Positions 3,764-45,143 of a stretch of DNA of 64,000 nt are shown here, one piece after another. The notes beneath the pieces were generated by a model. It was not told the DNA's origin, did not search any database, and saw only the letters and a program-made list of their open reading frames with translations. The first letter of the stretch is position 1. Every line of letters starts with the position of its first letter. This DNA comes from Bryobacter sp. CoA8 C33 (GTDB taxonomy: Bacteria > Acidobacteriota > Terriglobia > Bryobacterales > Bryobacteraceae): assembly GCA_019931185.1 (NCBI GenBank), contig JAINDK010000018.1, forward strand, positions 1 through 64,000, written 5' to 3'. The position numbers and the translations under genes are program-made.

Positions 3764-4210
3764 GTGCCAAAATTTGTCTTGTCGGCGTGGATCGATGCAC
3801 CGCTCGAGCGGGTATGGGCGTTTCATGAAGCGCCGGAAGCGCTTGAGCGGCTGATGCCGCCGGGGCAAAAGATGCGAGTGAATTTGCGGGAAGGGGGCAT
3901 TCGGGAGGGGGGCCGAGTGGTGATTGCGATGCCGCTGCTGGGGCTGATCCCGGTGGAGTGGCATGCGCGGCACACGGTGTATGAGCCGATGCGGCGCTTT
4001 GTGGATGAGCAGGAAAAAGGGCCATTTGCGTATTGGCGGCACGAGCACCGGATGGAAGCCGAAGGGACGGGGACGCGGCTGACGGATGAAATTGAGTATC
4101 GGCTGCCGGGTGGGAGCTTCGTGAACTGGGTGGGGGGGATCATTGTAAGGCAACAATTGAAGAGGTTATTTCAGTACCGCCACAAAGTGACAAAAAGATT
4201 TTGCGAATAA
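3764..4210 (+). CDS. SRPBCC-family lipid/ligand-binding protein
   Basis: The 148-residue protein starts at a GTG behind a GAGGG ribosome site. Its beginning (MPKFVLSAWIDAPLERVWAFHEAPEALERL) is the typical opening of START/SRPBCC helix-grip proteins of the polyketide-cyclase/dehydrase or YfcH-partner type. A central beta-rich stretch and a long C-terminal helix (VGGIIVRQQLKRLFQYRHKVTKRF) complete the fold. Such proteins bind a hydrophobic ligand in a cavity; no catalytic residue can be assigned. It is divergent from the ABC importer with only 36 bp between the starts, and a DinB-family gene follows 46 bp downstream. Confidence 0.8.
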   Translation: MPKFVLSAWIDAPLERVWAFHEAPEALERLMPPGQKMRVNLREGGIREGGRVVIAMPLLGLIPVEWHARHTVYEPMRRFVDEQEKGPFAYWRHEHRMEAEGTGTRLTDEIEYRLPGGSFVNWVGGIIVRQQLKRLFQYRHKVTKRFCE

Positions 4211-4256
4211 GCGGTCCTTGTGCTGATAGGATGCAGGAAGCGTAAGTACAGGGAGA

Positions 4257-4733
4257 ATGCGCACTTCGATCCGCATTGCCGGGCAGATCCGGCGTTCTGT
4301 TTTTCATGAGGGTTGGCATGGCCCGGCGGTGCTGGAGGTTCTGCAGGGGCTGGATGCGGCCAAGGCGGGAGCGCGGACACCGGTGGCGAAGCATAGCATT
4401 TGGGAGTTGGTGCAGCACATGCGGTGCTGGCAGGAAGCGGGTTTGCTGGCGATGGATGGCAAGGCGTTGCCGCCGGCCGAGGAGGTGGATGCGTTGGGAT
4501 GGGACAAGATTGAGGAGCTTTCTGAGGCGGCGTGGCAGGGGGAAGTGGCACGGTACCGGAACTCAGCCGAGAAGCTATCGCAGCGGGCTGCTACGCTGGA
4601 CGACAGACAACTGGCGCAGCAGGTGGGTGGGCGGGCGTATGATTTAGGGCATATGTTGTTGGGGATCGCGAGCCACAACACGTATCACTGCGGGCAAATT
4701 GTGCTGCTGCACCGGTATCTTCATCTGCACTGA
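4257..4733 (+). CDS. DinB-family four-helix-bundle protein
   Basis: The 158-residue protein fits the DinB/YfiT superfamily in length and pattern. The family's metal-binding His triad is visible: H46 (in VAKHSIWELV) and H140 and H144 (in GIASHNTYHCGQIVLL). Members include thiol-dependent transferases, such as bacillithiol transferases, and many proteins of unknown role, so the reaction cannot be named. The gene follows the SRPBCC gene closely on the same strand. Confidence 0.85.
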   Translation: MRTSIRIAGQIRRSVFHEGWHGPAVLEVLQGLDAAKAGARTPVAKHSIWELVQHMRCWQEAGLLAMDGKALPPAEEVDALGWDKIEELSEAAWQGEVARYRNSAEKLSQRAATLDDRQLAQQVGGRAYDLGHMLLGIASHNTYHCGQIVLLHRYLHLH

Positions 4734-4762
4734 AGCGATGAAAAGTAGCAATGTGAAAATGT

Positions 4763-4768
4763 TATAAT
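4763..4768 (+). promoter_or_regulatory. Consensus -10 box (TATAAT) directly before a GTG start
   Basis: A perfect TATAAT lies 7 bases before the GTG at 4776. Transcription would begin at about 4775-4776, which leaves no room for a ribosome binding site. The -35 region is poor (TGAAAA near 4739-4744). No Shine-Dalgarno sequence lies before the GTG. Confidence 0.6.
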
Positions 4769-4775
4769 CTTTGAA

Positions 4776-5468
4776 GTGAAGCGATCTACCTTGCTACTGG
4801 TCGTGGTGGCTACGGGGCACTGCCTTTATTCTCAACAAGCTATCGTTAACATGCCGTCAGCGGACATCACGCCGAGGCGGAAGCACTTTTACATGCACGA
4901 AACGCAGACTCGGCCGCAGAATCCGGGGCGGTACTGGTATGGGACGAATTTTTACGCGTATGGGGTGGGGAAAGCGACGGAATTGGCGGTGACGAGCTAC
5001 AACGTGGGGACGCCGGCGACGCCGAATTTTGCGACGGGGATTGGATTTAAGAGCGCGCCGCAGTTGTTTCGGAAGACACGGGAGGAGTTAGAGATCAAGT
5101 GGACGGTGGGGCAGATGGGGGTGATGAATCACCGGGGAAAGGGTTTTGGGAGCTTTACGTATTCGCACCTGAGCATGCGGACGCCGGGAACAAAGACGCG
5201 GCTGACGGCGGGGGGATTTTATGGGACCGAGGAGTTGTTCAAGCGGAATACGGGGAATTTTTTGGGTTCCGTGGAGCAGCCGTTATTTCATCACAAGATA
5301 CAGGTGGTGGCGGAATGGTTTCGCGGGCAACACGACTTTGGATTTTTCATACCGGGTGTGAGTTTTCACTTGCCGAAGGAGCAGGTGATCGTGGTGGCGT
5401 ACAAGTTTGCGAACAATCCGAAGAATGGGGCGAACGGGCTTGTGATTGAGTATGGGCTGACGTTCTAA
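4776..5468 (+). CDS. Hypothetical secreted protein, possible small outer-membrane beta-barrel
   Basis: The function is not recognised. The 230-residue product starts at GTG with a signal peptide (MKRSTLLLVVVATGHCLYSQQ). The rest alternates polar and aromatic residues in beta-strand style (GRYWYGTNFYAYGVG, GFGSFTYSHLSM, TRLTAGGFYGT, IQVVAEWFRG). It ends in GLVIEYGLTF; a terminal Phe is the usual sorting signal of outer-membrane barrels. A barrel of about eight to ten strands would fit the length. The GTG start is favoured because the signal peptide needs it. The transcript may be leaderless (see the -10 box at 4763-4768). A strong terminator follows at 5476-5500. Confidence 0.65.
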   Translation: MKRSTLLLVVVATGHCLYSQQAIVNMPSADITPRRKHFYMHETQTRPQNPGRYWYGTNFYAYGVGKATELAVTSYNVGTPATPNFATGIGFKSAPQLFRKTREELEIKWTVGQMGVMNHRGKGFGSFTYSHLSMRTPGTKTRLTAGGFYGTEELFKRNTGNFLGSVEQPLFHHKIQVVAEWFRGQHDFGFFIPGVSFHLPKEQVIVVAYKFANNPKNGANGLVIEYGLTF

Positions 5469-5475
5469 AGCAGAA

Positions 5476-5500
5476 GAGCCTCCCCGGGGTGGGGAGGCTC
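5476..5500. terminator. Bidirectional terminator hairpin between convergent genes
   Basis: A perfect 10-bp stem (GAGCCTCCCC with GGGGAGGCTC) encloses a 5-base loop, 8 bases after the stop of the plus-strand gene and 30 bases beyond the stop of the minus-strand receptor. The T-run after it is weak (CTGACTTT), so it may work with Rho or act mainly as a 3'-end protector. Confidence 0.75.
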
Positions 5501-5529
5501 CTGACTTTAAGGGTTGTGAAGCGCGGCGA

Positions 5530-8500
5530 TTAGAAATCGTAGCGGAGGCCGAACTGCATAACCCGGGGGCCGCCGAGGGTGCCGGCATAGCGGCCGAAGG
5601 CGGAGGGGTTGGACAGAGCGAGGTTGCTGTTGAGGGGGTCGAAACGCACGGAGTTAGTGACGTTGAAGACTTCCCAACGGAGCTGGAGGGTGTGACCTTC
5701 GCGGATGGTGAAGTTCTTATTCAAGTTCATGTCCATATTGAACAGACCGTCACCGCGAACGGAGTTACGGCTGCCGATTTCACCGGGGCTGGTGAAGTCG
5801 AAAGCGCGGAGGGCGGCGGCGGGGTCAACAAAGATGTTGGGACCGGAGCGGCCTCCGGGAGGGGCGGGGGCGTTCTTGTTGGTGCCGTCGGCGACATTGG
5901 CAATCTGAGTAGCAAAGCCGGTGACGTTGTAGTTGGTGGGCCAAGTGCGGTTGTGACCGACACCGACGGGGAGACCGGAGGTCTGACGCCAGATGCCGCC
6001 GAGCTGCCAGCCGCCGAGGATGGTGTTGGCCGCAGTGCTGGCGCCGCTGAGGAACTTCTTGCCCTTGCCGAAGGGCAGGCCGTAAACAAAGTTGGCGTTG
6101 AAGTTATGGCGCTGGTCGAAGTCAGAGGAAGCGCGGGACTGGTAGCGTCTGTACGGGTTGATGATGACCCCGCGCGTGGTGCTGCCAGTGCTGTTTTCAG
6201 AGGTGGAGCCAATATCGATGGAATGGGACCAAGTCCAGTTGAAGCCAACCTGATCGCCGTTGGAGAAGCGCTTTTGGGCGCCCAACTGGAAGGAGTTGTA
6301 GGTGGAGAAGCCGACGGAGCGGAGGGCACGCAGGTAGGAGAACTGCGGGCTGTAGAAGGCAAAGCGGCCGAGGGCGGAGGCGGAGGGGTCACCAAAGCGG
6401 TCCATATTTTCGAGGGCGCCGGTCGCATCGGGGAAGAAGTCGTTGTAGAGCTGGTAGGCGTTTTGGGTGGCGGTGCGGCCGCTACCGGCAAGGCCGGGGA
6501 AGAGGTTTTCCCAGAAGGGGATGGGGTTGACCTGGCTGACGGGCGTATTACGACGGATCAGACTGGTGAGGGCGTTCGCAGCGGTGAAGTAATCAATGTT
6601 GCTGCGGGGGTCACGAATGTTGAGGGGAGTGGCCATGTCTTCGCTGGTCATGGTGCGCTTGCCCTGGCTGGCTACGTAACCGGCGTTGATGGTCCAGCCG
6701 GAGGCGAGCTCGCGATTGATGGAAAGGTTGTAACGCAAGGTGTAAGGAGCGCGGAGGCGATCGTCGAGCGAGTTGGTGATGGCGAAGTTATTCGGCTGTG
6801 TAACCGGGAACTGGGCCGGAGGCGGGGGTGAGACGAGCCCCGGGGGAATGTTGAACAGACCCGTGAAGCGGGGAGCGCCGGCGATGGTTTCCCGGCCGGA
6901 GGCATTGTTGAGTGAGGTGGAGAGGCCGAGAGCACTGGCATCGAAGTCACGGATCAGGCCGGAACCGAAGACGTCATAATAAATGCCGAAGCCGGCGCGG
7001 ATGACGCTCTTGCCGGGGCCGCCGAACAGGAGCTTGGCGAGGCCGGACTTGGCGTCGGGTGCGTAGGCAATGCCGAGGCGGGGAGACCAGTTCTTGAGGT
7101 TGTCATAGAGAGGACGACCGCCCTTGTTGGCGAGCTGAAAAGCGATCGGGGGGAGGCCGGTGCCGCCCGCCAGACCATTGCCGGCGTTGGCGATACGGGT
7201 ATCGAACCACTGGCTTAGGGGGATGTTGGGGCTGGTCTGCACGCCGTTCTTCTCATAGATAGCGGGCCAGTGCATGTAGCGGAGGCCGCCAGTGATGGTG
7301 AGATTCCGTGTGGCCTTCCAGGTATCGGAGATGTACATTTCGGCCTCTTCGCCCTGAAAGTTACGCAGCACGGGGGTGCCGGGGGCCTGGGCGGTGACGG
7401 AGCCGTCGGCTTTGGGCATGTAGTTGTAGCGGCTGGTGACCTGGGTGACGATGCCGAGCAGAGCGACGGTGGCGTCGTTGAAGGAGGTGCGGGAGCCGGC
7501 ATTGATGCGGTTATTCCCGAGGGAGGCATCGGCCCAGGGGGCGGAGAGGACGCCGCCGGAGGCGGTCATCCAGGAGGAGTTTGTTACGCCGGTGAAGAAA
7601 GAGTTGGCGAAGTTCGAACGGTCGTTCTGGAAGACGCGGATGCTGCCGCCGAACTGGATGGTGTGCTTACCCTTGGTCCAGGTGAAGTCCTGGGTGAAGT
7701 TGTAGGTGGGTGAGAAGCGGCGGAAACTGCGGGTGGTGCCGACCAGAGGATCGATGCCACGGAAGGTAACGATCGGGTAGGTACCGATGCCGGAGGTTTC
7801 GACACCTTGGCGGGTGAGGCCCCAGCGGGTGGAGGAGATCAGTGAGTTGCTGACCGTGGAATCCCAGCCGAGGGCAAGGCCCTTGGAGTTATTGAGGTCG
7901 ACGGAGTTGGGGGCAGCACCGGGGAATTGCGGGGCGAAGCCTTCGTTGTCGTTCTGGAGCTGGCCGCGGGCAAAGAGGCGATTGCGGTCGTTGACCACGT
8001 AGTCGATCTTGGCGACATAGGTGTTGTAGCGGCGGCGCAGGGGGCTATTGAAGCGGAAGCCGGCGGTGTTGATGCCGTCGCCGGTGGTGAAGTCATTGGG
8101 CAGCGGGTAGGCGCGGAGGACCTGGAGGGCAGCCTGATTAACGGAGCCGGCGCCGTCGAGGCGGCTGAGCAATTCCGAGGAAGGGACCGAGACGCGGGCG
8201 CCGCCGACGCTCAGGTAATCGATGATGCCGTTACGGAGGTTTTCGCGCGGGACGGTGCGAACGACGGATTGTTCGAGACGGTCCTGCTGGCCTTCCCAAT
8301 TGGCGAAGTAGAAGAGCTTATTCTTCTTGATGGGGCCACCGAGCCGGCCGCCATAGATATTGCGATTGAGCTTGGGGGTGGGCAGGCCGCGGCCGTCGGC
8401 GCCGAGGGTAGAGTTATTGAAAAAGGTGTTCGAGTTGAACATTTTGTTGCGGACGAACCAGTAGGCAGCGCCGTGGAGCTCGTTCGAGCCGGAGCGGGTG

Positions 8501-36194: not shown

Positions 36195-36284
36195 GGAGGG
36201 ATGGCCGAGCGGTTTAAGGCACCGGTCTTGAAAACCGTCGTAGGGGAAACTCTACCGTGAGTTCGAATCTCACTCCCTCCGCCA
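36195..36284 (+). tRNA. tRNA-Ser (anticodon UGA)
   Basis: A class II tRNA of 90 bases with encoded CCA. Acceptor GGAGGGA pairs with TCCCTCC, discriminator G. The D-arm is GGCCGAGCGGTTTAAGGC. The anticodon loop CTTGAAA carries TGA at 36229-36231. The long variable arm GTAGGG-GAAA-CTCTAC is diagnostic of Ser, and the T-arm has GTTCGAATC. The outermost anticodon-stem pair is C-T. The convergent beta-propeller gene ends 3 bp downstream. Confidence 0.97.
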
Positions 36285-38392: not shown

Positions 38393-38567
38393 TTGTGCGA
38401 CTCTAGACACTAAACTCCATGCCCATGGCCCGGACAAATGAGCGCAAGGTCAGCCTCAGCGTGATGCTGCGGATGACGGCCATGGATGTCTGCTGCGGTC
38501 CGCCCGCCCTGTTTCCGGCAGAAACACACCTCTAAAATTCCGTTCCTCAATTTGGAAAGGAGCGCCC
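38393..38567 (+). promoter_or_regulatory. 175-bp leader before the guanidine operon, possible RNA structure
   Basis: The gap ends in a strong AAAGGAG site. CCATGGCC (38423-38430) can pair with GGCCATGG (38478-38485), enclosing an imperfect hairpin built from GGTCA/TGAC and CAGC/GCTG. A further stem TCTGC/GCAGA lies downstream. Operons of this kind often carry guanidine riboswitches, but I do not see the guanidine-I core (CUAGGGUUCCG, ACACGG), paired ACGR loops of guanidine-II, or a clear guanidine-III match. Confidence 0.35.
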
Positions 38568-39284
38568 ATGGCCTCTGAAACTCTCCTGTTTGAAGAAGAG
38601 TTGCGTGGCGGCGCCAGCTTCGCGCATGTGCTGAAGCGGGGTACCGCAATACGGATCACGGACGTGGAGGGCGGAGCGAATGTGCCCGCCACGTTCTTCA
38701 ATTTCGAGCTCCTGGTCGAGCGCTACAACATGCCGGATACGTTGAAGGCGCAGCACACCGCGCACCTGACGCGGGGCCATTGCTTGTATTCGGACATGGG
38801 GCGCATCCTGTGTTCGATCACCGCGGACACGGTGGGCTGGCATGACCCGATCGGAGCGCATTCGACGGCGGAATCGGTGCGGGCGCGCTTTGGCGAGCAT
38901 AGCTATCAGCAGTACCGCAATGACTGGTATACGTCCACGCGGGAGAATTTCTTGCGGGAACTGGGCAAGTTTGGGATGGACCGCAGAGACCTGCAGGGCC
39001 ATGTGAATTTCTTCTCCAAGGTGCAGGTGGACGAAGCGGGGCGGATACACTTTGTCGCGGGGAATTCGAAGCCGGGAGATTGGGTGGAATTGCGCTCGGA
39101 GATGAACACGCTGGTGATTCTCGACACGAATCCGCATCCGCTCGATCCGAACCCGCGCCATGAACCGAAGCGCGTGCATCTGCGCGTGAGCCGCGTGGAG
39201 GGGCCGGGGCCTGATGATTACTGCCGTAACTTCCGGCCCGAGAACGGGCGCGGATTCGCGAACACGGAAAGGTATTTTCTCTAA
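38568..39284 (+). CDS. cgdA: Carboxyguanidine deiminase subunit (UAAP1, DUF1989)
   Basis: This 238-residue protein was formerly called urea carboxylase-associated protein 1. DUF1989 pairs of this kind have been shown to form carboxyguanidine deiminase (CgdAB), which converts carboxyguanidine to allophanate, releasing ammonia. Family features seen are RGTAIRITDVEGGANVPATFFN, DMGRILCSITADTVGWHDPIG and GHVNFFSKVQVDEAGRI. The second subunit follows after 12 bp, then the carboxylase and allophanate hydrolase. A strong AAAGGAG site precedes the ATG. The symbol follows the published cgdAB naming; the guanidine role is by family and context. Confidence 0.88.
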   Translation: MASETLLFEEELRGGASFAHVLKRGTAIRITDVEGGANVPATFFNFELLVERYNMPDTLKAQHTAHLTRGHCLYSDMGRILCSITADTVGWHDPIGAHSTAESVRARFGEHSYQQYRNDWYTSTRENFLRELGKFGMDRRDLQGHVNFFSKVQVDEAGRIHFVAGNSKPGDWVELRSEMNTLVILDTNPHPLDPNPRHEPKRVHLRVSRVEGPGPDDYCRNFRPENGRGFANTERYFL

Positions 39285-39296
39285 ACGAGGTGCGTC

Positions 39297-39950
39297 ATGA
39301 GTGATCGAATTCTAGTGGAGAGCAAGCTGCGGCTGGAGACGGCGGTATATGACGAGGTGGTGCCGGCCGGGGAGGGCTGGATTCACGAGGTGAAGAAGGG
39401 GCAAAGCTTCCGTATCGTGGATCTCGAAGGGAATCAGGCCGCCGATACGCTGTTCTATAACGCGCGTGATTTCAGCGAGCGGTATTCGGCGTTTGACACG
39501 ATCCAGGGGCAGGGCAGCATCTATTTGACGGCGGGGACGCGGCTGCTCTCGAATCTGGGCAACGAATTGATGACGATCACGGCGGACACTTGCGGGCGGC
39601 ACGATACGCTCGGGGGGGCCTGTGCGGCGGAGTCCAATCAAGTTCGCTATTCCCTCGATAAGCGCCACATGCACAACTGCCGCAACACGTTTCTGATGGC
39701 GCTGGCGAGTTGGGGGATACCGAAGCGGGACATTACCTCGAACGTGAACTTCTTCATGAACGTGCCGGTGACGCCGGCGGGCCAGTTGACGTTTGAAGAC
39801 GGCATCAGCGAGGCGGGCAAGTATGTGGAGATGAAGGCGGCGATGGACGTGGTGGTGGTGATCAGCAATTGTCCGCAATTGAATAATCCTTGCAATGCCT
39901 ACAATCCGACGCCGGTGCGCGTGTTGATCTGGAGCGGCGATGTTCTCTAA
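39297..39950 (+). CDS. cgdB: Carboxyguanidine deiminase subunit (UAAP2, DUF1989)
   Basis: The 217-residue partner of the preceding protein has DUF1989 motifs matching it: [52 protein letters not shown], and [21 protein letters not shown]. Cys and His residues in [12 protein letters not shown] are likely metal or active-site ligands. Its stop lies inside the start of the carboxylase gene (11-base overlap), so the two are translated together. Confidence 0.88.
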
Positions 39951-42900
39951 AGTACTGGTTGCGAACCGGGGGGCGATTGCGTGCCGCATTCTGCGGACGC
40001 TCAAGAAGATGGGGATTGCCGGGGTGGCCGTGTACTCGGAGGCCGACCGTCACGCTGCCCATGTGGAGCAGGCCGAGGAAGCGTTTCTGCTGGGGCCGGC
40101 GCCGGCGGCGCAAAGCTATCTGCAAGCCGAACGAATACTTGCCATTGCGCGGGAATGCGGGGCGGAGGCGATTCATCCGGGTTATGGCTTCTTGAGCGAG
40201 AACGCCGGGTTTGCCGATGCCTGCACGGCGGCGGGCATTCAGTTTATCGGCCCGACGGGCGAGCAGATGAGGGCCTTTGGTCTGAAGCACCGGGCGCGCG
40301 AGCTGGCCGTGGGGGCGGGGGTGCCGCTGTTGCCGGGCACAGGATTGCTGGAAGGAGTGAGTGAGGCGCGGCGCGAGGCCGAGCGCATCGGTTATCCGGT
40401 GATGCTGAAGAGCACGGCGGGAGGCGGAGGAATCGGGATGCGGCTGTGCCGCACGGAGGAGGAACTGACTGGGCATTATGCGAGCGTGGAGCGGCTGAGC
40501 CTGGCTAACTTCAAGGATGGGGGGCTTTATCTCGAGAAATACGTTGAGAAGGCGCGGCATATCGAGGTGCAGATTTTTGGGGATGGGCGCGGGAATGTGA
40601 TCGCGCTGGGGGAGCGGGATTGTTCGGTGCAGCGGCGCCATCAGAAGATCATCGAGGAGACGCCGGCGCCGGGGTTGAGCGAGAGCCAGCGGAGCGAGTT
40701 GCTGGCGGTGGCTGAGCGGCTGGGCCGTTCGATCGGCTATGCCTCGGCGGGGACGGTGGAGTTTGTTTTCGATACGGCGAGCGGGCAGTTTTACTTTCTC
40801 GAAGTGAATACGCGGCTGCAGGTGGAGCATGGAGTGACCGAGGAGGTAACGGGCGTCGACTTGGTGGAGTGGATGCTGCTGGCGGCGGCCGGGGAGATGG
40901 GCGATCTTGCGGCGCGGCGTCCGCGGGCCCGGGGTGCGGCGATTCAAGCGCGTTTGTATGCCGAGGATCCGAACCGGCATTTTCAGCCGAGCTCGGGGCT
41001 TCTGACGAACGTGGTGTGGCCGGGAGAGGGTGTGAGGGTGGATGGCTGGGTGAGGCCGGGCGTCGAGGTGACGGCGTTTTATGATCCGCTGCTGGCCAAG
41101 CTGATTGTTTGCGGAGGCACGCGTGAGGAGGCGATCGGAAAGCTGCGGCGAGCACTGCGGGACACGCGGCTTGACGGGATTGAGACGAATCTGCATTATT
41201 TGCGGGAAGTGGTGGCGGGGGAAGAGTTTCGGCGAGGGGATGTCTATACGAAGCTGACGGAGAGATTCGAGTACCGGCCGCGGACCTTCGAAGTGCTGGA
41301 TGGGGGCACGATGACGACGGTGCAGGATCTGCCGGGGAGGCTCGGGTTTTGGGATGTGGGCGTGCCGCCGAGCGGGCCGATGGATGGGTTGAGTTTCCGG
41401 TTGGGGAATGAGCTGCTGGGCAACGAGGCGGGAGCGGCGGGGCTGGAGTGTACGCTGGCGGGGCCGGCGTTGCAGTTTCATTGCGCGGCGCGGATCGCGC
41501 TGTGCGGGGCGCGGATGGAGGCGACGCTTGATGGGCAGAGTGTGCCGTGGTGGACGGTTGTGCCAGTGGCCGCGGGGGCGGTATTGGAGTTGGGTGCGGT
41601 GGAGGGAGCGGGGGCGCGCAGCTACATCCTGTTCGCGGGCGGGCTGGATGTGCCGGAGTATCTGGGGAGCCGCGCGACGTTCACGCTAGGGAATTTTGGT
41701 GGCCATGGGGGGAGGGCCTTGCGCACGGGCGATGTGTTGCATCTGGGCGAGGCGCCGGCGGGGGAGGGGCGAGCGGTGAAGCCGCCGGAGATTGGCACGC
41801 ACTGGGACATCGAAGTGCTCTATGGTCCTCATGGAGCGCCTGACTTCTTCACGCCCGAGGATATCGAGACTTTCTTTGAAACGAACTGGAAGGTGCACTA
41901 CAACTCTTCGCGGACCGGGGTGAGGCTGATCGGGCCGAAGCCGCAATGGGCGCGCAAGGATGGCGGTGAAGCGGGGCTGCATCCATCGAATATCCACGAC
42001 AACGCCTATGCGATTGGGGCGATCGACTTTACCGGCGACATGCCGGTGATTCTGGGGCCGGATGGGCCGAGCCTAGGTGGCTTCGTTTGTCCCGCCACGA
42101 TCACCAGCGCGGAGCTGTGGAAGATTGGGCAGTTGAAGGCAGGGGACACGGTGCGGTTCCACGCCCGTGCCGAGGGCAGCGAGCGGCTGCCAGCCGTGGT
42201 GCATCGCAACGGGGATGTGGTTTACCGGCAGGCGGGAGACCGATATCTGTTGATCGAGTACGGGGAATTGATCCTGGATTTGCCGCTGCGCTTTCGTGTG
42301 CAGGCGGTGTACAACTGGTTTCTCGAGCGCAAGCCCGCCGGGGTGATCGACGTGACACCGGGCATCCGTTCCTTTCAGGTGCATTATGATCCGGAGCGGG
42401 TGTGCCGGGCGGAGTTGATTGCGCTGATTGACCGGGCCGAGGAAGAGGCCGGTCATGACCGCCATGCGGAAGTGGCCTCGCGCGAGGTGTGGTTGCCACT
42501 GAGCTGGGATGATCCGGCGACGCGGTTGGCGATTGAGAAGTACATGCGTTCGGTGCGGCCGGATGCGCCGTGGTGCCCGTCGAATATCGAGTTCATTCGC
42601 CGGATTAATGGTCTGGAATCGATCGAGGATGTTTACCGGATCGTGTTCGAGGCCAGCTATCTGGTGTTGGGGCTGGGCGATGTGTATCTGGGGGCGCCGG
42701 TGGCGACGCCGCTCGATCCGCGGCACCGGCTGGTAACGACGAAATATAATCCGGCCCGGACGTGGACGGCGGAGAACAGCGTGGGCATTGGCGGGGCGTA
42801 TCTTTGCGTGTATGGCATGGAAGGGCCGGGCGGATATCAATTCGTGGGGCGCACGGTGCAGATGTGGAACACGTACCGGACGACGAAGGAATTCGAGCCG

Positions 42901-43434
42901 GGGCATCCCTGGCTTCTGCGGTTCTTTGACCGGATCCGGTTCTTCCCGGTGACGGCGGAGGAACTGGTGCGGCTGCGTGAGGATTTTCCGAATGGCCGCT
43001 ATTCGCTGCGGATTGAGCCGGGGCAATTCCGGTTGAGCGAATATGAGCAGTTTCTGACGTCGATCACGGATTCGACGCGGGAATTTCAGGCGCGGCAGCG
43101 CAGTGCGTTTGCTGCGGAGCGGGCGCGCTGGGCCGAGATGGGAGCCGACCGCGTAGCCGACGATGCCGAGCCGATTGTCGAGGCGGCGCCGGAGATCGTG
43201 GTGCCACCTGGATTCAAGGCCTTGAAGGCATCGAGCGCAGGCAGCGTGTGGAGTATTGAGGCGCGGGAGGGAGACCGGCTGCGGCCGGGGCAGAAGGTGA
43301 TTTTGATTGAAGCGATGAAGATGGAAGTGGCCGTGTCGACGGCCCGGGGCGGGCGGTTGCACTCGTTGCACTGCAAGACCGGGCAGGCGGTGCTGCCAGG
43401 CCAGATTCTGGCAATCTTGCAACCGGAGACATAG
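39940..43434 (+). CDS. Biotin-dependent urea/guanidine carboxylase
   Basis: The 1,164-residue enzyme has, in order, a biotin carboxylase domain (about 1-450, ATP-grasp motif [14 protein letters not shown] and [16 protein letters not shown]), two carboxyltransferase parts related to KipA and KipI ([20 protein letters not shown] from about 450; [20 protein letters not shown] from about 765), and a C-terminal biotin carrier domain with the biotinylated K1127 in EAMKM. It carboxylates urea or guanidine with bicarbonate and ATP. The cgdAB pair next door argues for guanidine as the true substrate; I could not assign the residue said to separate the two activities. Confidence 0.93.
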
Positions 43435-43436
43435 GG

Positions 43437-45143
43437 ATGAAGCCAACGGAGGCCGTACGCCGCGCCTATGAGCGCATGAATACCGAGACGAAGCAGCCGG
43501 TATGGATCAGCCGGGTGCCGGAGGAGCAGGCGATGGCGCGGGCCTTCGCGCTGGAAGAGCATCCGGAGGCGGCGGGCGGGCCACTCTATGGGAAGGTCTT
43601 CGCCGTCAAGGACAACATCGATGTGGCGGGACTGCCGACGACAGCGGGTTGTCCCGCGTTTGCCTATACGCCGGAGCAAAGCGCGCCGGTGGTGGGGCTG
43701 CTTGAGGCGGCGGGAGCGATTCTTGTGGGCAAGACGAACATGGATCAGTTCGCGACCGGGCTGGTGGGGACAAGGTCGCCGTATGGAGCCTGCTCCAGTG
43801 TGTTGAATGCCGAGTACATTTCGGGGGGGTCGAGTTCGGGCTCGGCGGTGGCTGTGGCATTGGGGCAGGTGGATTTCGCGCTGGGCACGGATACGGCGGG
43901 CAGTGGGAGAGTGCCGGCGGCGTTCAACGAATTGATTGGGTTGAAGCCGACGCGTGGATTGATCAGCGCCACGGGGGTGGTGCCGGCATGCAGGACGCTG
44001 GACTGTGTGTCGATCTTCACGCGGGAAACCGGCCTGGCGGGCGATGTGTTGTTGGCGGCGGCGAAGCCGGATCCGTCGGATTTTCTCTCGCGCGCGGCGC
44101 AGGGGGCGAAGGGTACAGCTTGGTCGGCGGCGTCGTTCCGGCTGGGTGTGCCGGCGGCCAGCCAGTTGGAGTTTTTTGGTGATGGGGAGGCAGCGAAACT
44201 GTTTGAGGCGAGTGTTGCCCGTTTCAAGCAGCTTGGCGCGAGCGTGGTGGAAATCGATCTAAGTGCGTTCCGGGCGGCGGCGGAGCTGCTTTATAGCGGC
44301 CCGTGGGTGGCGGAGCGGCTTGCGGCGATTGAAGCGTTCGCCGAGCGGCATGAGGCGGATATGAACCCGGTGGTGGCGAAGATTATTCTGGGGGCGCGCC
44401 AATATTCGGCGGTGGATGGGTTCCGGTCGCAGTACCGATTGGCGGAATTGCAGCGCGCGTGTTTGCGGGAATGGGAGGATATGGATTGTTTGCTCTTGCC
44501 GACGACGCCGACGATCTTTACGCATGCGGAGATCGCGGCGGACCCGATCGGACGCAATACGCAACTGGGCTACTACACAAATTTCGTCAACCTGCTCGAT
44601 TTGAGCGCGATCGCGATACCGGCGGGGCGGAGGCCGAACGGGCTGCCGTTCGGAGTGACGCTGACGGCGCCGGCGATGGCGGAGCCGGCGCTTTTGGCGA
44701 CGGCGGAGCGTTTTCTTGGTGGCGTGGGCCGGAGCGTGGTTCCGAGCGGTTTCGTTGAGGTGGCGGTGGTGGGGGCGCATTTGAGCGGAATGCCGTTGAA
44801 CGGGCAACTGACCTCGCGCGGGGCTTATCTGCTTGAGGCTACGCGAACGGCCGCCAGCTACCGGCTTTATGCGTTGGCGAACACGACCCCGCCCAAGCCA
44901 GGGCTAGAGTACGTGCCGGGGTTTGATGGCCCGGGAATCGCCGTGGAGGTTTGGGCGATTCCGGCGGCTGAATTTGGGAGCTTTGTCGCGGCGATCCCCG
45001 CGCCGCTCGGCATGGGCAGTGCGGTGCTGGCTGATGGGCGCGGCGTGAAGTGTTTTATCGCGGAACCGTATGCGCTGCGGAACGCCGAAGACATTACGCG
45101 CTTTGGTGGCTGGCGGGCATTTTTGCAGACGCGCCCGGCTTAG
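43437..45143 (+). CDS. atzF: Allophanate hydrolase
   Basis: The 568-residue enzyme splits allophanate to ammonia and carbon dioxide, the last step of the route. The amidase-signature domain carries K58 (VFAVKDNID), the Ser-rich GGSSSGS (S132-S134) and nucleophile S156 (TDTAGSG). The C-terminal domain (about 440-568, VEVAVVGAHLSGMPLNGQL, LYALANTTPPKPGLEYV) is the AtzF/DUR1-type domain that handles the carboxylated intermediate. The start lies 2 bp after the carboxylase stop. The stop overlaps that of the convergent DUF4126 gene (TTAG). Confidence 0.93.
   Translation: MKPTEAVRRAYERMNTETKQPVWISRVPEEQAMARAFALEEHPEAAGGPLYGKVFAVKDNIDVAGLPTTAGCPAFAYTPEQSAPVVGLLEAAGAILVGKTNMDQFATGLVGTRSPYGACSSVLNAEYISGGSSSGSAVAVALGQVDFALGTDTAGSGRVPAAFNELIGLKPTRGLISATGVVPACRTLDCVSIFTRETGLAGDVLLAAAKPDPSDFLSRAAQGAKGTAWSAASFRLGVPAASQLEFFGDGEAAKLFEASVARFKQLGASVVEIDLSAFRAAAELLYSGPWVAERLAAIEAFAERHEADMNPVVAKIILGARQYSAVDGFRSQYRLAELQRACLREWEDMDCLLLPTTPTIFTHAEIAADPIGRNTQLGYYTNFVNLLDLSAIAIPAGRRPNGLPFGVTLTAPAMAEPALLATAERFLGGVGRSVVPSGFVEVAVVGAHLSGMPLNGQLTSRGAYLLEATRTAASYRLYALANTTPPKPGLEYVPGFDGPGIAVEVWAIPAAEFGSFVAAIPAPLGMGSAVLADGRGVKCFIAEPYALRNAEDITRFGGWRAFLQTRPA

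Follow-up and report, generated by a model that had tools for sequence, protein, structure and literature searches.

Guanidine carboxylase, cgdAB and allophanate hydrolase genes are shared targets of the guanidine riboswitches I-III (accessible parts of PMC12186494 and PMC12508155). Control through nascent peptides has been described for other systems: RAPP arrest provides the precedent for peptide arrest (PMC10951233, accessible part), CruR is a copper-sensing upstream open reading frame (uORF) with a cysteine motif and Pro-Pro that acts through Rho (PMC9426467, accessible part), and TnaC and other metabolite-sensing leaders, like the locus described here, place a short peptide at the head of a catabolic operon (PMC8429421, accessible part). 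Here we describe the leader of a guanidine-degradation operon in a stretch of 64,000 nucleotides from Bryobacter sp. CoA8 C33 (assembly GCA_019931185.1, contig JAINDK010000018.1, positions 1 to 64,000), to which we refer as the window. From sequence comparison, this leader very probably encodes a cis-regulatory leader peptide, and the reading that we favour, and consider probable, is a new family of cis-acting, arrest-type leader peptides controlling guanidine catabolism. An earlier note on this DNA had suggested that the leader could be an unrecognised sensor; it has been found to be conserved and is probably regulatory, but its conservation across genera lies in the encoded peptide and not in an RNA aptamer.

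Conservation of the leader peptide

The upstream regions of cgdA in relatives have been found to share a short open reading frame (ORF), which is common to genera whose leader DNA otherwise differs. The encoded peptide follows the consensus R..R.IS[LI].V.LR[LIM]T.MDVCCGPP, after which a tail of 1 to 12 residues varies in both sequence and length; in the window, a second ATG at 38425 provides an alternative start. A short ORF, a conserved peptide directly before a pathway gene and selection on its residues are the marks by which a regulatory leader peptide is recognised, and all three have been observed here. Three leader peptides have been compared with Pfam (E up to 1) and NCBIfam (E up to 10), and neither has yielded a match. 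No description of this peptide has been found in the open-licence literature searched, which is not proof of its absence in print; the string CCGPP has returned nothing relevant, and guanidine combined with leader peptide, uORF or arrest peptide has given no such system among the matches listed. In the accessible text of PMC8632094 and PMC11109978, which deal with uORF candidates, acidobacteri and urea carboxylase are not mentioned.

Selection has been analysed in 69 non-redundant leaders, comprising 67 from the species-wide scan described below (two chance matches and three duplicates having been dropped) together with L001 and L006. Leu(-5) and Arg(-4), both outside the search pattern, are invariant in all 69, with 5 and 6 synonymous codons, respectively, and Val(-7) and Thr(-2) are kept in 66 and 63 leaders, while the third positions of the Val, Gly and Pro codons of the core vary freely (entropy 1.5-1.8 bits). 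The ratio of non-synonymous to synonymous changes (pN/pS) amounts to 0.41 over codons -16 to +8, eight residues of which are fixed by the pattern. A stop codon directly after Pro-Pro has been found in none of the 69 leaders, and one codon later in seven. The share of CCT among Pro codons is higher in the leader than in the first genes (0.30 against 0.11), as is the share of TGC among Cys codons (0.90 against 0.70), a codon bias that might favour pairing with the Shine-Dalgarno sequence.

In the mechanism we propose, a ribosome translating the small ORF would stall at CCGPP, an arrest that we consider probable, and would then cover the C-rich, G-poor segment just downstream. In this position the ribosome might prevent Rho (or RNA structure) from shutting the operon down, such that the pathway genes would switch on when the substrate is present, and the peptide would take the part played in other bacteria by guanidine riboswitches.

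Distribution among Acidobacteriota

A scan for the exact codons of MDVCCGPP has been performed on one genome per species for 84,980 species, using contigs of at least 3 kb; it is sensitive to this core only, and divergent cores fall outside it. Among the 72 stretches obtained, the first gene downstream is cgdA in 58, cgdB in 4 and allophanate hydrolase in 3, hence 65 of the 72 matches directly precede one of these genes, and none has been found in 7 (gene names outside the window are given by BLAST to the window proteins, or by reading by eye where stated). Four of these seven (L050, L068, L088 and L105) have only 32-145 bases of downstream sequence; the genome copy of L050 (G560) has cgdA, and the genome of L088 carries a cgdA-like remnant, as judged by eye, followed by the carboxylase. 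At L077, the gene after the MDVCCGPP leader encodes an outer-membrane receptor of the TonB type with 1253 residues (4006-7953; PF25183, PF13620). Neither CgdA nor CgdB has a match in this genome, and the receptor is possibly an importer that belongs to the same regulon. Two matches, L078 (Chloroflexi) and L085 (Thermoplasmatota), have been rejected as chance, having neither the Leu-Arg motif nor guanidine genes, and the remaining 70 records all bear acidobacterial names. Leader and operon are carried, among others, by the cultivable Silvibacterium bohemicum (L045) and Terracidiphilus gabretensis (L039). In a set of 101 genomes, the window's own and 100 relatives, the codons are present in 10 genomes, among them the window's with a single occurrence, and each of the 10 matches lies a short way before cgdA and in its orientation; a reversed control pattern occurs in none of the 101, and a CgdA-like match has been obtained in 14, in G037 as a fragment only.

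The converse approach has started from the protein. CgdA exceeds its cut-off in 69 of 237 family genomes, and 69 cgdA loci from 68 genomes have been compared, with G628 represented twice, G500 omitted as a contig-end match and the frame-disrupted G615 kept. Codons for Cys-Cys-Gly-Pro, a criterion that other cores would escape, have been found within the 500 nt upstream of cgdA in 46 of the 69 loci, namely in 45 canonical MDVCCGPP leaders, all within 200 nt of the cgdA start codon, and in one shortened leader. In the latter (L133 in G664, MSLAHWERVILCCGPPLFPPL), CCGPP is kept and the Leu-Arg...MDV segment is lost; its genus mate G060 (L129) has kept a promoter-like element and no leader. In 19 of the 24 loci without a canonical leader, an open frame in the orientation of cgdA, measured from stop to stop and no shorter than 200 codons, ends no more than 64 nt before cgdA, which is therefore not the first gene there. 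Fifteen of these 19 frames encode related proteins whose repeat end is of the VWLSNL type, beta-propeller-like by eye, and only one of the 45 leader-bearing loci has such a frame (L128), which ends at the leader's own stop. The same leaderless architecture, with cgdA after a beta-propeller-like gene of ~290 residues or more, has been noticed at L189 and L190 and at family loci such as L169-L175; L189 has transporter-like ORFs on the other strand. The looser pattern VCCGPP has matched in 5 of 30 genomes chosen for having no leader or odd matches, yielding two real leaders (L192, which has a cgdA fragment next to it, and L194, the known G628 locus) and three apparent chance matches. The leader marks a part of the phylum only and, going by the record names, its genera are spread over two families or more.

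One leader per transcription unit, and the nature of the signal

Eight genomes reached via odd loci have been examined for the number of leaders and units, with allophanate hydrolase genes outside the unit count. Three leaders accompany three CgdB units in G672, two leaders two units in G673, and two leaders two units (cgdA-cgdB and carboxylase) in G668; the other five genomes have one leader each. This agreement of leader copy number with units fits a cis element, and a trans-acting peptide would not need it. A free small protein that acts in trans as a metallochaperone or enzyme partner would explain the strong conservation of the residues, but where a genome has two or three units, the leader is likewise present two or three times, always in cis, the C-terminal tail is variable, and L077 is the only real leader away from pathway genes among scan matches with a readable downstream gene; we consider such a protein quite improbable.

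As the same leader has been found before deiminase, allophanate hydrolase and carboxylase units, guanidine or an intermediate of the pathway is favoured as the signal, and on balance we lean towards this assignment. The main rival, left open by the cysteines, is a metal sensor: the vicinal cysteines of the nascent chain would bind metal, in the way that CXXC binds copper in CruR, or sense the thiol redox state, and the leader would report the metal supply, for instance for the DUF1989 enzymes. A uORF with a cysteine motif and Pro-Pro has indeed been reported as a metal sensor (PMC9426467, accessible part). Cys-Cys is present in 69 of 69 leaders, where the pattern fixes it, and in 45 of 45 protein-first leaders, for which Cys-Cys-Gly-Pro was the search criterion, and in the NCBIfam profiles CgdA and CgdB resemble trimethylamine N-oxide demethylase, far under the cut-off of that family. 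Trimethylamine N-oxide demethylase is a metalloenzyme. The same leader, however, also stands before allophanate hydrolase genes after which comes an ORF on the opposite strand (L052, L082, L090), and before a carboxylase-containing unit (L088/L234), and to our knowledge neither allophanate hydrolase nor the carboxylase has such a metal site; in addition, the cysteines are adjacent and not arranged as CXXC, and no Pfam match has been obtained. Consequently, we regard a metal sensor as unlikely, though as the alternative deserving most attention. Going further than a guanidine-related signal, we advance tentatively that the leader could be the first nascent-peptide guanidine sensor, in which the ribosome and the ...LR.T.MDVCCGPP chain would together form the receptor, employed by many Acidobacteriota with one copy per guanidine-regulon unit, in the place that guanidine riboswitches hold in other phyla.

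RNA structure of the leader and search for riboswitches

The fold proposed in the earlier note consists of an outer hairpin, CCATGGCC with GGCCATGG, around an inner one. The outer hairpin does exist (38423-38430 with 38478-38485), but none of its 8 pairs shows a compensatory change, and its sequence corresponds to the codons for Met-Ala and Ala-Met. In the inner hairpin, 3 of 10 pairs have changed on both sides among six genus members, which 6 of 500 shuffles reach. The check for covariation has accordingly given some support to the inner hairpin, which may be real in the window's genus, and has left the outer helix without support. As a whole, the fold of the window leader does not stand out from those of dinucleotide shuffles (z -0.90, with an equally good fold in 39 of 200), and in the 69 leaders the coding part is no more stable than synonymous recodings (mean z -0.28, p 0.15), nor is it with the core included (mean z -0.14, p 0.63).

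None of the 4227 Rfam families has matched the window leader at its cut-off, and the sole match in the 64 kb window is a tRNA gene at 36195-36281, between upstream genes (RF00005, 57.3 bits). Under permissive filters, the leader (38393-38567) has given a single Rfam match, to a snoRNA with E 3.1. The earlier view that the leader is without a known guanidine riboswitch has thus been borne out, since the Rfam scan gave no guanidine-I, -II or -III match; the two findings that could have overturned the proposal of a new sensor, an Rfam match and a leader that is not conserved, have not emerged, conservation in relatives being strong. Guanidine riboswitches are likewise missing from 38 related loci scanned with Rfam (20 + 18, partly overlapping, e.g., L007 and L110 are the same place).

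Genome-wide scans have covered guanidine-I and guanidine-II, with guanidine-III and -IV outside them. The window's genome has no guanidine-I match, and among 396 genomes sampled from the phylum none exceeds the cut-off; three weaker matches have been obtained, whose neighbours were read from raw ORFs. At L239 and L240 (G159 and G449), guanidine-I matches of 43.0 and 41.9 bits, against a cut-off of 63, lie ~50-100 nt before, or at, ORFs resembling EamA-type transporters by eye, and are perhaps a variant of this riboswitch. Guanidine-II exceeds its cut-off, under stricter filters, in 2 of the 237 family genomes (G540 and G011), in both cases with no cgd gene within 1.5 kb as judged from raw ORFs. 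In G540, the match (L241, G540:C12:64422-64464) is located ~30 nt before an ORF resembling an SMR/Gdx exporter by eye. The family hence owns a guanidine riboswitch, which at L241 stands on a likely export gene and not on the cgd operon. Fluoride riboswitches have been found near leader-cgdB units at L097 (2889-2959) and L079 (7281-7351), and an ORF resembling CrcB by eye follows cgdB at L042; some Acidobacteriaceae may have their fluoride genes close to those for guanidine.

A riboswitch that overlaps the small ORF, with the peptide being incidental, would be in line with the compensatory changes of the inner hairpin in the six sequences of the window's genus. Such a riboswitch has to be reconciled, though, with the ordinary folding of the coding part across the 69 leaders, with the uncompensated outer helix, with the lack of guanidine riboswitches in the window leader and the 38 related loci, and with residues that are kept despite free third positions. 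We take it to be very improbable.

Putative promoter and possible read-out

An extended -10 element (consensus TGCCATACT) has been identified 6-8 nt before the small-ORF start codon in 54 of 67 leaders, and at 14-15 nt in the window's genus; the search was seeded with TGNTATAAT, and among several start codons one 19-25 codons before the core was taken. With the element at 6-8 nt, transcription therefore likely starts at or beside the start codon, which suggests leaderless translation of the small ORF. A generic promoter scan has detected no full sigma-70 site in the window leader.

Downstream of the core, in a segment of at most 60 nt that begins after Pro-Pro, C outnumbers G in 58 of the 64 leaders, compared with 14 of 43 control upstream regions (p 6e-10); counted from the stop codon, with the first control, the numbers are 46 of 61 and 7 of 18. 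A C-rich, G-poor segment is compatible with control of Rho through a stalled ribosome, as has been reported for CruR (PMC9426467, accessible part), or may just provide an open landing site. A Rho-type read-out is a possible one, for which we claim less than for the arrest itself. The opening of the ribosome-binding site (RBS) of the first gene has been evaluated in the 48 leaders, out of 64, whose gaps do not exceed 120 nt, where masking by a stalled ribosome lowers the opening cost by a mean of 0.84 kcal, in comparison to 0.07 kcal for an upstream control mask. RBS sequestration has been rejected as the general main read-out, as the effect is statistically present but small, and it can be at most a part of the story.

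Classical codon attenuation, in which scarce charged Cys- or Pro-tRNA would stall the ribosome, draws on the two Cys and two Pro codons of the short leader and has a parallel in a Rhodobacterales cysS-linked uORF candidate that has been proposed to act via its Cys codons (PMC8632094, accessible part). The pathway, however, produces neither Cys nor Pro, two codons of each amino acid are few, the conserved Leu-Arg would not be needed, and the window leader, the only one scanned for intrinsic terminators, contains no terminator-like site; attenuation of this kind appears highly unlikely. Still less credit can be given to a leader that merely boosts cgdA translation by ribosome reinitiation. The small ORF does lie upstream on the same transcript, and reinitiation has been proposed as a role of leader genes, on the basis of a distance peak at ~10-11 bp in many phyla that is also seen in Acidobacteria (PMC4833913, accessible part). 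Reinitiation is nevertheless rejected because the stop-to-start distances, 26 to 290 nt in 64 leaders, do not fit, and it would not conserve a peptide.

Several observations weigh against an arrest-type leader peptide for guanidine catabolism. Classical rut sites are longer than the C-rich stretch, and relief of the RBS by more than 2 kcal has been found in 7 of the 48 leaders, against 3 for the control mask. Outside the search pattern, pN/pS rises to 0.57 (codons -12 to 0) and 0.65 (-16 to 0), values obtained with saturated synonymous sites, and the N-terminal part is therefore constrained only moderately. The residue before GPP is Cys, whereas Arg is critical in RAPP; since CGPP resembles RGPP without the critical Arg, the leader is not classed as a RAPP peptide. 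In an even phylum sample of 396 genomes, seven exceed the CgdA cut-off, and of these the window's own is alone in having the leader; in the others (G082, G299, G330, G346, G426 and G456) no peptide has been found within 1.5 kb on each side, and in two of these six, read more widely (L189 and L190), cgdA again follows another co-oriented gene. Finally, G667, G669, G670, G671 and G674 have a leader and no full-length guanidine carboxylase match, and all but G674, in which a CgdB match is present, also have no CgdA or CgdB match; these four are metagenome assemblies, but the link with guanidine is weakened by them. A leader without pathway genes in these genomes may result from loss, from incomplete assembly or from a different signal.

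The operon and its enzymes

The complete and tightly packed operon of cgdA, cgdB, carboxylase and allophanate hydrolase that the earlier note had recognised has been recovered gene by gene at the coordinates given there, with scores above the curated cut-offs (Table 1). In the carboxylase, D696 aligns with Asn1330 of the K. lactis enzyme and D914 with position 1584 (positions hand-counted in the alignment, residues checked). Aspartates at the K. lactis positions 1330 and 1584 are the rule for calling guanidine carboxylases (PMC11410670, accessible part). Because the carboxylase has Asp at the position that discriminates guanidine from urea, together with the second required Asp, guanidine is its expected substrate, as had been proposed in preference to urea. 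Regarding uptake, a listing of ORFs over 34-50 kb and family profiles on eight ORFs (35.1-45.8 kb) have agreed with the earlier statement that no guanidine importer is nearby, with no transporter among the eight; elsewhere in the genome the search was confined to TIGR03427, the binding protein of urea-carboxylase-linked ABC importers, which gave no match.

Table 1. Features of the leader and operon in the window.
Feature	Position	Strand	Basis
Putative extended -10 (TGCGACTCT), 14 nt before the small ORF	38396-38404	+	motif inference
Leader-peptide ORF, 38 codons and stop, MPMARTNERKVSLSVMLRMTAMDVCCGPPALFPAETHL	38419-38535	+	conserved in 69 non-redundant leaders
Hairpin within the leader-peptide ORF	38449-38477 (38449-38460 with 38466-38477)	+	compensatory changes only in the window's genus
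Invariant core MDVCCGPP, proposed ribosome-arrest site	38482-38505	+	comparison of leaders
Variable end of the ORF with the adjoining spacer, rich in C and poor in G (16 C and 6 G in 48 nt)	38506-38553	+	base counts; likewise in most leaders
Shine-Dalgarno of cgdA (GGAAAGGAG)	38554-38562	+	sequence reading
cgdA (UAAP1, DUF1989), carboxyguanidine deiminase subunit	38568-39284	+	TIGR03425 319.6 bits, cut-off 205.95; Pfam
cgdB (UAAP2, DUF1989), carboxyguanidine deiminase subunit	39297-39950	+	TIGR03424 339.1 bits, cut-off 284.7; Pfam
Guanidine carboxylase	39940-43434	+	TIGR02712 1791.9 bits, cut-off 1303.85; Pfam
Allophanate hydrolase	43437-45143	+	TIGR02713 763.2 bits, cut-off 511.05; Pfam

Comparison with known systems

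The RAPP-type peptides (ApdA, ApdP, ApcA) and SecM share with this leader an upstream ORF with a conserved end and x-Ala/Gly-Pro-Pro as the last motif, here CGPP in 69 of 69 leaders, and by this resemblance the CGPP leader may work like a RAPP peptide. The RAPP and SecM ORFs head sec or yidC genes, whereas the present leader is shorter and heads guanidine genes; CGPP does not occur in the accessible part of PMC10987492. With CruR (DUF2946), as far as the accessible description extends, the leader has in common a cysteine motif, a Pro-Pro end, the position at the operon head and possibly a Rho read-out. CruR, by the same partial description, comprises 145 residues, is predicted to be exported and has its CXXC 45 residues before RAPP, while Cys-Cys adjoins GPP here. 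Given this adjacency and the lack of a Pfam match in three leader peptides, the leader is not placed in the DUF2946/CruR family.

In TnaC, ligand-dependent arrest is combined with a Rho site just downstream, and the same logic would apply to the leader described here. The two differ in sequence, and the mRNA of the present peptide is apparently leaderless. This trait recalls the Cys-rich leader peptides of Actinobacteria (LpcA type), leaderless small ORFs with Cys codons that resemble this leader; they head sulfur genes and respond to Cys, and their targets differ from the guanidine genes found here. If our reading is true, metabolite-sensing arrest peptides would be extended to Acidobacteriota, which are abundant soil bacteria, and a short motif would be available for finding the regulon. 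In comparison with the guanidine riboswitches I-III, with no such RNA in the leader, the conserved element here is a peptide, and a peptide regulator would then represent a second, independent solution for the guanidine pathway besides the riboswitches.

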